Source: a virus
DNA length: 21,663 nt
Strand: one strand, 5' to 3'
IMG/VR virus record: IMGVR_UViG_3300035665_002369
Coordinates: 1 to 21,663 of that record
Below, one piece after another: positions 12,732 through 16,714 of the stretch. The position numbers were made by a program, and so were the translations under genes. The first letter of the stretch is position 1; each line of letters begins with the position of its first letter. Under the pieces are notes generated by a model. The model did no database searches. It was not told where the DNA came from and saw only the letters and a list, made by a program, of their open reading frames with translations.

Positions 12732-12925
12732 TCACCAAACTCCACGAACTGCCCACGGACCACAAACTCCGCAACACCGCCATCAAGGACCTGGATGTCC
12801 GCATCATCTGCCGGCACACACGCTCCACCCGAGATCCTCGCACCTGGAAAATCAAGGACGATACCTTCAATCGCCTCTCCGAAACTTGGCAGACCAACTT
12901 CGACTTCGTAATCATGAACAAATGA
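12728..12925 (+). CDS. Uncharacterised small early protein (65 aa)
   Basis: ATG at 12728 overlaps the previous stop and has AAGGAG 8 bases upstream. The frame is open to the left but only within the previous gene. The product contains LRNTAIKDLDVRIICRHTRS and a TWKIKDDTFNRLSETW segment, a small mixed alpha/beta protein with alternating charges. There are no obvious motifs. The tight operon position supports it as a real gene. Confidence 0.55.
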   Translation: MITKLHELPTDHKLRNTAIKDLDVRIICRHTRSTRDPRTWKIKDDTFNRLSETWQTNFDFVIMNK

Positions 12926-13299
12926 ATCCAACACCACGCACCGACCAGTACGTCGATAAGTGGATCAAAGATCGAATCGCACTCTGGCCAGACTTCGCAA
13001 GACAACTCGAAACAGAACTCAATGAACTCAAAACAACGATGGGTTCGCATCAGCAACAAAACCAAGCAGGCCATCCTCAAGGCAAACCACTCCTACTCAT
13101 GCACGGAACTAGCCAAGATCCACAACATCGCCCCATCCAGCGTCTGGAAGATCCGCAAGGGGAACTCAAACGCTGGAAAGACCTCGCCCACGCCCTCGCA
13201 GCCTGCCTCGGCTGCGGCTGCACCCAACAACTAGGCCTCTGCGTCCAATGCCACAACGCACAGAAACGCTACCGAGCCTGCCAAGTCCCACTCCAATGA
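12922..13299 (+). CDS. Early protein with Cys-rich C-terminus, containing a nested insert (125 aa)
   Basis: ATG at 12922 overlaps the previous TGA. Residues 1-37 (ending DFARQLETELNELK) and residues 84-125 (RWKDLAHALAACLGCGC, then LCVQCHNAQKRY) look like real protein. Cys95, Cys98, Cys100, Cys107 and Cys110 suggest a metal site. Residues 38-83 look unnatural (HQQQNQAGHPQGKP) and lie opposite a better HTH reading frame in the +1 frame. GAACTCAAA borders this segment on both sides, and its 138-base length keeps the outer frame. Removing it would join LNELK directly to RWKDLAHALA, a continuous helix. The gene may therefore be interrupted by an inserted domain. Confidence 0.55.
   Translation: MNPTPRTDQYVDKWIKDRIALWPDFARQLETELNELKTTMGSHQQQNQAGHPQGKPLLLMHGTSQDPQHRPIQRLEDPQGELKRWKDLAHALAACLGCGCTQQLGLCVQCHNAQKRYRACQVPLQ
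13022..13234 (+). CDS. Small HTH protein in a frame nested within another gene (70 aa)
   Basis: ATG at 13022 opens a frame one base ahead of the surrounding gene. Residues 9-47 (starting RISNKTKQAILKANHSYSCT, continuing ELAKIHNIAPSSVWKIRKG) are a convincing helix-turn-helix of the resolvase or transposase-like type, with the turn around HNIAPSS. The residues after about 50 (AGKTSPTPSQPASAAAAPNN) look like out-of-frame translation of the flanking gene. The HTH therefore occupies exactly the 138-base segment bounded by GAACTCAAA. No strong ribosome site precedes it. It could be translated by reinitiation, by frameshifting from the outer gene, or not at all. Confidence 0.5.
   Translation: MNSKQRWVRISNKTKQAILKANHSYSCTELAKIHNIAPSSVWKIRKGNSNAGKTSPTPSQPASAAAAPNN
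13024..13032 (+). repeat. Left copy of GAACTCAAA flanking the nested HTH segment
   Basis: GAACTCAAA at 13024-13032 recurs at 13162-13170, exactly 138 bases later and in the same frame of the outer gene. A related GAACTCAAT lies immediately before it at 13015-13023. Confidence 0.7.
13162..13170 (+). repeat. Right copy of GAACTCAAA flanking the nested HTH segment
   Basis: This copy encodes Glu81-Leu82-Lys83 of the outer gene, as the left copy encodes Glu35-Leu36-Lys37. Recombination between the copies would delete the HTH segment without shifting the frame. Confidence 0.7.
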
Positions 13300-13643
13300 G
13301 AACACCACTCACGGAATCCATCCCACTCGTCACCGACCTCCGCACCGCCGGTGCCACCTACCACCAGATCGCCAAACGCCTCGGCGTCTCACGCCAACGC
13401 GCCCACCAAATCTACAACACCGCCCTCAAACGCGAACAGATCAAGTCCGCATGGTACTACGGACTCTCCACCAGAAACATCTCCCTCATCAAATCCATGG
13501 GCATCAACTCCAAAGCAGAACTCGTCAAAGCCCTCACCTCCCAGAAAATCCCACCCGGCGGTGGCCTGCCCAACTTCGGGATCAAATCCTACCACGACCT
13601 CTGCACCTGGGCAGGAGTCAAAGTCATCGTCCTACGCAAATGA
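13296..13643 (+). CDS. Sigma region-4-like HTH fused to an RNA polymerase alpha-CTD-like domain
   Basis: ATG at 13296 overlaps the previous stop as ATGA. Residues 21-46 (TYHQIAKRLGVSRQRAHQIY, then NTALKR) match the region 4.2 recognition helix of sigma-70 factors, including the SRxRxxQI and AL positions. Residues 55-107 match the alpha C-terminal domain: LSTRNISLIKSMGI aligns with the DNA-contact helix, and NFGIKSYHDL aligns with the second helix-hairpin-helix. Arg60 aligns with E. coli alpha Arg265, Asn93 with Asn294, Gly95 with Gly296, Lys97 with Lys298 and Ser98 with Ser299; Asn268 is replaced by Ser63. The 115-residue protein is therefore a compact DNA-binding module built like parts of RNA polymerase holoenzyme. 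A transcription-control role is inferred. Confidence 0.72.
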   Translation: MRTPLTESIPLVTDLRTAGATYHQIAKRLGVSRQRAHQIYNTALKREQIKSAWYYGLSTRNISLIKSMGINSKAELVKALTSQKIPPGGGLPNFGIKSYHDLCTWAGVKVIVLRK

Positions 13644-13897
13644 TCGCCTCATCCACCAAGGACATCGTCAAAGCCCTCAACATCATCGCATCCCAACTCA
13701 ACTCACCAGATGGAATCCCGGAAACCGCACTCGCAGAAGCGGCCATCCGCCTCATGGACCTGGTACGCCTCACGGGCAAACTCTCCAACCACATCCTCGC
13801 GAACCCTGTCCATCACCCTGACTGCAACGTCCACTCCAAAGGCACCTACTGCTCATGTATCCTGTCGCAAATCAGCTCCCTACCACCACCAGAATGA
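13640..13897 (+). CDS. Small early protein with possible metal-binding tail (85 aa)
   Basis: ATG at 13640 overlaps the previous stop. The N-terminal two thirds is helical (STKDIVKALNIIASQL, then TALAEAAIRLMDLVRLTGKL). The C-terminal part contains HHPDCNVHSKGTYCSC, with Cys and His positions (His-His-x-x-Cys...Cys-x-Cys) that could bind zinc. I do not recognise the family. It continues the tightly overlapped gene cluster. Confidence 0.55.
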   Translation: MIASSTKDIVKALNIIASQLNSPDGIPETALAEAAIRLMDLVRLTGKLSNHILANPVHHPDCNVHSKGTYCSCILSQISSLPPPE

Positions 13898-14282: not shown

Positions 14283-16094
14283 ATGACTCCCTATCAACGA
14301 GCCGCACTTTGGATCTCCAAGGTGCCACCCGCCATCTCCGGATCCGGCGGACATAACCAAACCTACACCGCTGCCGTGGGCCTCGTCCACGGCTTCGGCC
14401 TTTCTCAAGGAGACGCCTTCAACATCCTCTCCTCCTGGAACTCCAACTGCCTCCCACCGTGGACCGAGACCGAACTCCGTCACAAGCTGGCCGACGCAGC
14501 CACCAAACCCCACGACAAACCAGCAGGCCACCTCCTCCACGCATCCCCCAGCCTTCAGTATGGTGACCTCACCAGGGTCACATTCAAGAAGCCATCCCCC
14601 CCACCGCCGCCAGCACCGGGTACACCCATCGAGACCGACAGCGAGTTCAAACGCTTCCTCACCGCAGCCTTCGCCCAAGGCGAGACCGTCTGCATCTGCG
14701 AGCAGGTCGAGGAGGGCAGGCCAGCCACCAGCGGCTCCTTCCTCCCAGTCGAAGAATGGATCCGCCGCTTCGATTCACCAGACTCCCTCCTCCTCAAACC
14801 GGATCGCGAGGACGGTGTGTTTGTCCGAATAAACCCCTTCAAGCCCAACCTCTACAGCGGCAGCGACAACGACGTGGCCGCCTACCGCCATGTCCTCGTC
14901 GAGTTCGATGACAAACCCAAGGCCGAACAGGAGAAACTCCTCCGCGACTCCGGTCTCCCCATCTCCGTACTCATCGATTCCGGTGGCAAATCCATCCACG
15001 GCTGGGTCCGCGTAGACGCCGCAGATCGCAAGGAATGGGACGCCCGACGCGACGAAATCTATCGGGCCATCCCCGGCATCGATCCCAAGAACAAGAACCC
15101 CTCACGGTTCTCCCGCCTCCCGGGCGCATGGCGCGGCGAGCATCAGCAGAAGCTGCTGGCCACCACCATCGGCGCCTCCTCCTGGGAGGACTACCTCACC
15201 GCCCGAGAGAGCGACGAGGACAAAGCCACCATCGTCACCGTCAGGGACCTCTTGTCCTTCGACCCCGCCAACGATCCGGATAACCTCATCGGCAACCGAT
15301 GGATCACCCGAGGCTCCTCGATGATCATCAGCGGGGGCACCGGCATCGGGAAGTCATCGATGATGATGCAGATCATCATCCGATGGTGCCTCGGCCTCGA
15401 CTTCTTCGGCATCACGCCGGTGAAGGCCCTCAAGATCGGCGTCATCCAAGCCGAGAACGACAAGGGCGACCTGGCAGAGGCGTTCCGGGACATCGTCAAA
15501 AGCATGGCCCTCAACGTCGAACAGATGCGGAGCCTCCACACCAACCTGGAGTTCCGCACCGAGACCGTCCGCACCGGCGACCATTTCCTCGCCTACGCCA
15601 GACGCTTCATCCACAAGTCCAAGCTCGATCTCATCGTCGCCGATCCACTCTTCTCCTACTTCGGCGGCGATCTCAGCGACCAGTCCGAGGTCAGCGTCTT
15701 CCTCCGCAACAAACTCCAGCCCATCCTCCACGAAACCAAGGTCGCATGGATCTGGATGCACCACGTCGCCAAACCCCAGCGCAAGGAGTCCGGCGCCGAA
15801 CCACTCACCACCATGGAACTGGCCCACTCAGGATTCGGATCCTCCGAACTCGCCAACTGGGCGCGGGAGATCGCCGTCTTGCATGAGGTGGGCCAGTCCA
15901 AGCCACGACGCTTCCAGCTCGCCTTCTGCAAGCGCGGAGGACGACTGGAGACTAGCTCACTGTATCTTCGTCACTCGCCGGCGGGCATACTATGGGATCG
16001 CTGGAATCCCATGATGATGACCGGCGCAGAGCTGAAGCAGCCTCCTTCTCGGCCTTCTTCTTCTGGTCCTCCTCGTCGAGGGCGGCGCGCATAG
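14283..16094 (+). CDS. Primase-helicase (archaeo-eukaryotic primase-like domain plus RecA-like ATPase)
   Basis: The 603-residue protein begins with a helical PriCT-like segment (residues 1-85). Residues 200-300 resemble an archaeo-eukaryotic-type primase: HVLVEFDD (203-210), DSGGKSIHGWV (232-242) and PSRFSRLPGAWR (273-284). The ATPase half has Walker A GGTGIGKS (351-358) and Walker B LIVADP (450-455), followed by WIWMHHVAKP, typical of RepA/DnaB-like or AAA_25 helicases. It would prime and unwind DNA for a host polymerase, since no phage polymerase is seen. The last residues (RPSSSGPPRRGRRA) look like tail read-through into a convergent gene: the two genes overlap tail to tail by 143 bases. 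Confidence 0.83.
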   Translation: MTPYQRAALWISKVPPAISGSGGHNQTYTAAVGLVHGFGLSQGDAFNILSSWNSNCLPPWTETELRHKLADAATKPHDKPAGHLLHASPSLQYGDLTRVTFKKPSPPPPPAPGTPIETDSEFKRFLTAAFAQGETVCICEQVEEGRPATSGSFLPVEEWIRRFDSPDSLLLKPDREDGVFVRINPFKPNLYSGSDNDVAAYRHVLVEFDDKPKAEQEKLLRDSGLPISVLIDSGGKSIHGWVRVDAADRKEWDARRDEIYRAIPGIDPKNKNPSRFSRLPGAWRGEHQQKLLATTIGASSWEDYLTARESDEDKATIVTVRDLLSFDPANDPDNLIGNRWITRGSSMIISGGTGIGKSSMMMQIIIRWCLGLDFFGITPVKALKIGVIQAENDKGDLAEAFRDIVKSMALNVEQMRSLHTNLEFRTETVRTGDHFLAYARRFIHKSKLDLIVADPLFSYFGGDLSDQSEVSVFLRNKLQPILHETKVAWIWMHHVAKPQRKESGAEPLTTMELAHSGFGSSELANWAREIAVLHEVGQSKPRRFQLAFCKRGGRLETSSLYLRHSPAGILWDRWNPMMMTGAELKQPPSRPSSSGPPRRGRRA

Positions 16095-16581
16095 CCCGGA
16101 ACCACTCCTCCTTGTCCTCCACAGCAGCAGCCTTTTCCTCCACAGGGATCGGCTGCTGCTCCGCTTCAGGGGCAGGGGATTCCTCCTGCTCATCCTGCTC
16201 CTCCACCTTCTCGCGATTGGCCGAACGCTTTCGCTCAAGCAGGCCAATCTCCTTCTCATGCCTCCGCACCGTCGTCTTCAGATACGCAAGCTCACGCTTC
16301 AACTCGTTTATCGCCCGGGTCAACAGCGCAACCTTGTCCCCATCCTCAGGCGGCACCCAATCACACCCACGCCATTGCCTATGCACCATGTCATAGGTCA
16401 GCACCATGGACTTCTTGTTCCGCATCGAATTGAACGCACGGATCGCCCGACCCAGATCACACCCAAGGTTCTCTCGGATATGCCTCAAGACCTCGGACCG
16501 ATCCGGATCGGCGTCGTGGCGCTGCGGGGGCATCAGCCGGAACATCGACCGAAGCGTGGAACCATTCTCCAGATAACTCAT
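15952..16581 (-). CDS. Leftward coiled-coil, acidic-tailed protein (209 aa)
   Basis: The frame on the minus strand is open from a TTG at 16623. I prefer the ATG at 16581, which gives MSYLENGSTLRSMF; an ATG 16 codons later is also possible. No good ribosome site is seen. Residues 28-75 have a helix with CDLGRAIRAFNSMRNKKSMV and a Trp-rich end (HRQWRGCDWVPP). Residues 84-125 are a coiled coil, and 126-185 are acidic and Lys/Ala-rich (EEQDEQEESPAPEAEQQP). Its 3' end overlaps the primase gene by 143 bases on the opposite strand. A palindrome covers its putative promoter. A regulatory or DNA-binding role is possible but not shown. Confidence 0.62.
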   Translation of the reverse strand: MSYLENGSTLRSMFRLMPPQRHDADPDRSEVLRHIRENLGCDLGRAIRAFNSMRNKKSMVLTYDMVHRQWRGCDWVPPEDGDKVALLTRAINELKRELAYLKTTVRRHEKEIGLLERKRSANREKVEEQDEQEESPAPEAEQQPIPVEEKAAAVEDKEEWFRAMRAALDEEDQKKKAEKEAASALRRSSSWDSSDPIVCPPASDEDTVS

Positions 16582-16627
16582 AGCAGGAAGAGAATGCGTC
16601 TTGCACGGACACACCGCAAGCAAAAGG

Positions 16628-16677: not shown

Positions 16678-16714
16678 CTCCCTAGAGGGAGCTTAATCTC
16701 CCTCTTCTAGGGAG
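16678..16714. repeat. Two adjacent inverted repeats with the same arms
   Basis: CTCCCT-AG-AGGGAG (16678-16691) is followed after CTTAAT by CTCCCT-CTTCT-AGGGAG (16698-16714). The four arms can pair locally or with one another, forming two small hairpins or one larger structure. They lie beside a terminator and upstream of the leftward promoter. Their function is unknown; protein binding or a structured origin element are possible. Confidence 0.65.

Follow-up and report, generated by a model that had tools for sequence, protein, structure and literature searches.

What role does a viral protein of only 115 residues play in a phage replication and recombination operon, when it joins a helix-turn-helix (HTH) resembling sigma-70 region 4 to a helix-hairpin-helix resembling the RNA polymerase alpha C-terminal domain (alpha-CTD)? 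The gene in question, P0001 (13296..13643, plus strand), lies in a 21,663-base viral fragment, referred to here as the window, which also carries genes for RecT, an exonuclease, SSB, a helicase, a Holliday-junction resolvase, a primase-helicase and terminase. Among named phages, the terminase is nearest to those of Akkermansia phages (31-35% identity), which hints at a Verrucomicrobiota host. The 115-residue open reading frame was proposed in a first-pass annotation, and both the encoded protein and its coding constraint are confirmed. In codon comparisons with two 90% identical relatives, 15 synonymous and 11 non-synonymous codons differ from L003 (19 third-position differences) and 16 and 12, respectively, from L004 (21 third-position differences), a predominance of third-position changes that identifies the frame as a real gene under coding constraint. 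In addition, both ends of the gene show a plus-strand ATGA overlap, with the stop codon of the upstream ORF 12886-13299 lying over the P0001 start codon (13296..13299) and the P0001 stop codon over the start of the next ORF (13640..13643). These overlaps fit a translationally coupled operon and support the assignment of the P0001 start to position 13296. The protein is net basic (K+R = 18, D+E = 5), and its position in the replication module suggests that it is an early product.

The N-terminal part of P0001 is a tri-helical HTH (residues 5-50; 13308..13445, plus strand), with helices at residues 5-17, 22-29 and 33-50 in the AlphaFold2 model, and this is the part with the best structural confidence in the models of both P0001 and its relative L008. 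Pfam matches residues 18-46 to Sigma70_r4 (E 4.7e-7; 29.7 bits versus a cut-off of 24.1), Foldseek matches the modelled HTH to the sigma4 structures 3n97_D and 1ku7 and also to DeoR, and P0001 shares the S-R-x-R-x-x-Q-I core of sigma-70 region 4 (PF04545). Residues 11-43 are also matched (E 9e-8) by PHROG 686 (HTH DNA binding protein), a 76-position family that, unlike P0001, lacks an alpha-CTD-like domain. The sigma region 4-like character claimed in the annotation is thus borne out by a score above the Pfam cut-off, but the label is not exclusive, because the family HTH profile fits the resolvase HTH_7 as well as it fits sigma4 (38.6 versus 40.1); the relative L008 falls under the Sigma70_r4 cut-off (E 0.068). 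The Pfam match spans only profile positions 19-47, the second half of region 4. Region 4.1 is absent from P0001, given that the match begins at profile position 19 and that residues 1-50 are modelled with three helices only; region 2 was not found in the 115 residues by Pfam and NCBIfam scans. As judged from its sequence, the first domain is an HTH of sigma4-like appearance, for which the profile does not demonstrate a sigma origin.

A linker containing an invariant Trp53 in the family alignment (residues 51-55; 13446..13460, plus strand), a residue that the search pattern described below required, leads to the second domain, an alpha-CTD-like helix-hairpin-helix (residues 56-107; 13461..13616, plus strand). 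First scans with the P0001 sequence alone missed this domain, and no convincing match to it came from single-sequence searches of Pfam, PHROG, NCBIfam and PDB. When residues 50-115 of a six-sequence family were aligned with 31 genomic RpoA CTDs, however, hhalign returned a probability of 91.6, a score of 34.75 and an E-value of 8e-7, the last of which reflects a single comparison and understates the multiple-testing burden, although the alpha-CTD hypothesis had been fixed beforehand by the annotation. The score compares with at most 14.9 for 200 column shuffles, 10.75 for the reversed profile, and 14.4 and 11.0 for the RuvA-type and LigA helix-hairpin-helix domains. A 35-sequence profile gave 31.3 for alpha-CTD, with a shuffle maximum of 17.8 and scores of 15.9 (RuvA-type) and 13.0 (LigA). 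At the profile level, the similarity is specific to alpha-CTD over other helix-hairpin-helix domains, in agreement with the annotated assignment. The model of L008 (pLDDT 83.9) places C-domain helices at residues 59-67, 73-82, 87-90 and 95-106, as expected for an alpha-CTD fold. Foldseek searches with the whole P0001 and L008 models listed no alpha-CTD, the HTH dominating the matches, and a ten-C-domain profile matched none of the PDB sequences.

The residues named in the annotation check out. R60, N93, G95, K97 and S98 of P0001 correspond to alpha R265, N294, G296, K298 and S299, while the equivalent of N268 is lost (S63 in P0001; Ser, Thr or Lys across the family), so that five of these six alpha DNA-contact residues are kept, all five invariant in 35 sequences. 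P0001 also shares with the RpoA alpha-CTD (PF03118) its helix order and the pattern LSxR...G(I)xS/T...N-F/Y-G-x-K-S. It differs in that it is not part of an alpha subunit, is only 28% identical over 46 columns, and has, in the window clade, a short insertion after helix 2. In alpha, residues 259-261 form the determinant facing sigma, and in P0001 this is replaced by Tyr54/Gly56. Judged by these positions, the residues kept are those predicted to hold the backbone or minor groove, and neither the polymerase-contact surfaces of alpha-CTD nor those that meet sigma or activators are recognisably retained. The domain probably stems from an ancient acquisition, the source being alpha-CTD-like.

Both domains are conserved throughout a family whose gene occupies a fixed place in the operon and diverges faster than most neighbouring genes. 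A scan of viral contigs for the signature W-x2-GLSxR followed, at fixed spacing, by G-x-K and W found 79 stretches, 67 of which are the P0001 gene, compared with 6 and 13 stretches for two neighbouring spacings. The gene is present in 73 contigs besides the window, as 35 distinct sequences. The invariance of R60, G95 and K97 is partly circular, because these residues were demanded by the search pattern; Asn61, Asn93 and Ser98 are equally invariant in the 35 sequences though the pattern left them free. Outside its own clade P0001 is 35-53% identical to its relatives, whereas the primase-helicase is 64-75%, the resolvase mostly 80-90% and full terminase matches about 78-87% identical; the small ORFs beside P0001 are about as divergent as P0001 itself. 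Full-length relatives were absent from 60 genomes of one bacterial phylum, and a two-locus list of matches from genome contigs was rejected as a source of relatives, the similarity being confined to the HTH. The window protein lacks the single CxxC tail of CPHCG type with which most members beyond its clade terminate (L114, L119, L118, L125, L132, L188). In four contigs (L010, L115, L150, L182) a recombination breakpoint lies at the start of the P0001 gene: compared with the window, the upstream HTH-like ORF is 100% identical, P0001 53% and the primase-helicase 71%.

It is probable, if by no wide measure, that the phage uses P0001 to regulate the replication/recombination operon through sequence-specific DNA binding, with a second grip derived from alpha-CTD. 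Specificity would come from the HTH, reading a short major-groove site, and added affinity from the helix-hairpin-helix, whose Arg60 and Asn93-x-Gly-x-Lys-Ser set would hold the backbone or minor groove next to that site. The presumed outcome of DNA binding by both modules would be transcription control of the phage's own genes.

A less likely but serious rival, raised by the proximity of the gene to the primase-helicase, is that P0001 acts not in transcription but as an origin-binding or loading factor for that enzyme. Wherever contigs are long enough, the gene order is RecT-Exo-SSB-helicase-resolvase, then the HTH-like ORF, P0001, an 85-aa ORF and the primase-helicase, so that P0001 holds a constant place two genes before the latter, within the recombination/replication module. 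The upstream neighbour is a 70-aa ORF (13022..13234, plus strand; from the ORF list and tblastn similarity in related contigs) that appears by eye to be a putative HTH, and was not detected in the L118/L160 clade. The 85-aa ORF (13640..13897, plus strand; 52-62% identical outside the window clade), to which P0001 is coupled by ATGA, comes next in nearly every related contig that extends far enough, and the primase-helicase (phrog_2597; 14283..16094, plus strand) is recognised by its PHROG match and in related contigs. The case for a replication accessory is one of gene order, however, and the sequence around the P0001 gene showed no iteron-like repeats.

Distinctly unlikely is a polymerase-directed role, in which the sigma4-like or alpha-CTD-like part would contact host RNA polymerase or sigma and steer transcription to phage promoters. 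In polymerase both domains lie close to the promoter, they co-occur in other mobile-element proteins, and the divergence of P0001 relative to its neighbours would suit a host-facing protein. Against this stand the missing region 4.1, the equally resolvase-like and sigma-like HTH, and the residues themselves. In the recognition-helix motif R33-Q34-R35-A36-H37-Q38-I39 (13392..13412, plus strand), Q34, R35, Q38 and I39 are invariant in 35 sequences, yet the -35 contact set of sigma region 4 (R584, E585, R588) is not preserved: R33, the R584 equivalent, is kept or replaced by Lys, the E585 position is Gln34 in 35 of 35 sequences, and the clade-dependent position 37, equivalent to R588, is His in the window clade and Tyr, Gly or Cys elsewhere. 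In sigma70, E585Q and R588H loosen specificity at -33 of the -35 element (PMC2613000). Of the alpha-CTD surfaces, that of residues 259-261 is not kept and N268 is lost; in E. coli, UP-element activation is lost with N268A/W, and PBAD activity with N268T (PMC11434276). The same substitutions speak against the annotation's suggestion that P0001 jointly reads a -35-like element and an UP element. Its further suggestion of holoenzyme imitation drew no positive evidence, region 4.1 and the 259-261 determinant both being lost, and there is only a slim chance that P0001 is a minimal two-part polymerase imitation of altered specificity that marks phage promoters for host polymerase or masks host promoters. 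What stands of that interpretation is the presence, in one small protein, of two modules with the affinities described.

Also improbable is a chance resemblance of a generic helix-hairpin-helix to alpha-CTD, which would accommodate the weak single-sequence scores (11.8 bits for the P0001 CTD versus the RNA_pol_A_CTD cut-off of 23.8; E 0.21), the Pfam assignment of the plasmid relative P0007 to HHH_5 instead of alpha-CTD, and the probability of 86 that the broadest profile reaches with RuvA-type domains, but not the far higher alpha-CTD scores, which are still best for that profile (48.6 versus 30.0 for RuvA-type and 19.3 for LigA), or the conserved residues, which are the alpha-specific ones. 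When ten family CTDs were scanned openly against Pfam, RNA_pol_A_CTD ranked first (hit by four of them, best E 0.086), and one CTD matched S4. Moreover, a C-domain-only viral-contig protein with the same signature (L154) exceeds the RNA_pol_A_CTD cut-off (25.0 versus 23.8 bits) and matches the window family CTD with an hhalign probability of 97.4, providing a bridge between the family and alpha-CTD.

Should P0001 prove to regulate by binding DNA with the help of an alpha-CTD-derived grip, it would show that the alpha-CTD fold can work away from RNA polymerase, as a small mobile module for DNA binding that phages and plasmids attach to differing N-terminal DNA-binding pieces. The residue pattern would then allow a direct examination of the alpha-CTD functions that survive without polymerase. 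A search for the same domain pair showed that other proteins have it too, so this phage is not alone in carrying it. In ORFs of the faecal 'Bacteriophage sp.' entries MT835636.1 (332 aa) and MT837876.1 (303 aa), a Sigma70_r4 domain precedes RNA_pol_A_CTD and each exceeds its cut-off; these ORFs differ from P0001 in being about three times longer, with an extra N-terminal HTH_17 and a long linker. Matches resembling RpoA at high identity also turn up in the faecal contig set, so that these two entries, though filed as phage, may be bacterial. Both domains likewise exceed the cut-offs in the Chryseobacterium plasmid protein WP_124785686.1 (294 aa) and the Aurantiacibacter plasmid protein WP_063612567.1 (437 aa), the latter with the reverse domain order. 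The Piscinibacter plasmid protein WP_316704560.1 (125 aa) is as compact as P0001, is colinear with it over 95 residues (hhalign probability 92.5) and shares the W-x2-GLSxR signature, but lacks the Asn93 and Ser98 equivalents, and its C-domain alone fails to match alpha-CTD. A further compact, colinear relative, P0008, occurs on Pseudomonas plasmids; it and P0007 lack several DNA-contact positions, and the domain may serve another role there. P0001 adds a compact form to a domain pairing that databases already contain, and the literature searched offers no account of what the pairing does. Because plain Pfam and PHROG scans miss the second domain, similar proteins are probably filed as 'HTH protein' or 'hypothetical'.

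Among phage proteins, Microbacterium phage Morrill gp24 and the Bacillus phage Goe8 'RNA polymerase subunit alpha' resemble the P0001 family module in carrying an alpha-CTD above the Pfam cut-off, but, unlike P0001, no HTH partner was detected in them. Two further proteins (L198, 118 aa; L207, 103 aa) have the alpha-CTD-like module behind an N-terminal piece of antitoxin/ribbon-helix-helix-like appearance, which matches TacA1 weakly in L198 (E 0.025) and nothing in L207; such joining to other pieces is as expected of a generic DNA-holding module. On the Aurantiacibacter plasmid, the gene for the alpha-CTD and sigma4 protein (L065:2518-3831) lies next to genes for an AAA ATPase and a small protein associated with DNA modification, possibly a defence locus.

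No binding site for P0001 was identified, one conserved tandem palindrome having been considered. Its two elements, CTCCCTAGAGGGAG (16678-16691) and CTCCCTCTTCTAGGGAG (16698-16714), about 20 bp apart, are operator-like and lie just upstream of a minus-strand gene (15952-16623). Most of the related contigs that extend this far carry the pair, or a variant of it, at a single location each. The palindromes were rejected as the P0001 site, since their CTCCCT/AGGGAG half-sites are the same in clades whose P0001 recognition helices differ, and they give no support to P0001 as their reader. The minus-strand gene, opposite in orientation, encodes a charged, apparently coiled-coil-rich product, and the 1.4 kb without a confirmed gene that separates it from the terminase genes is likely a control region.
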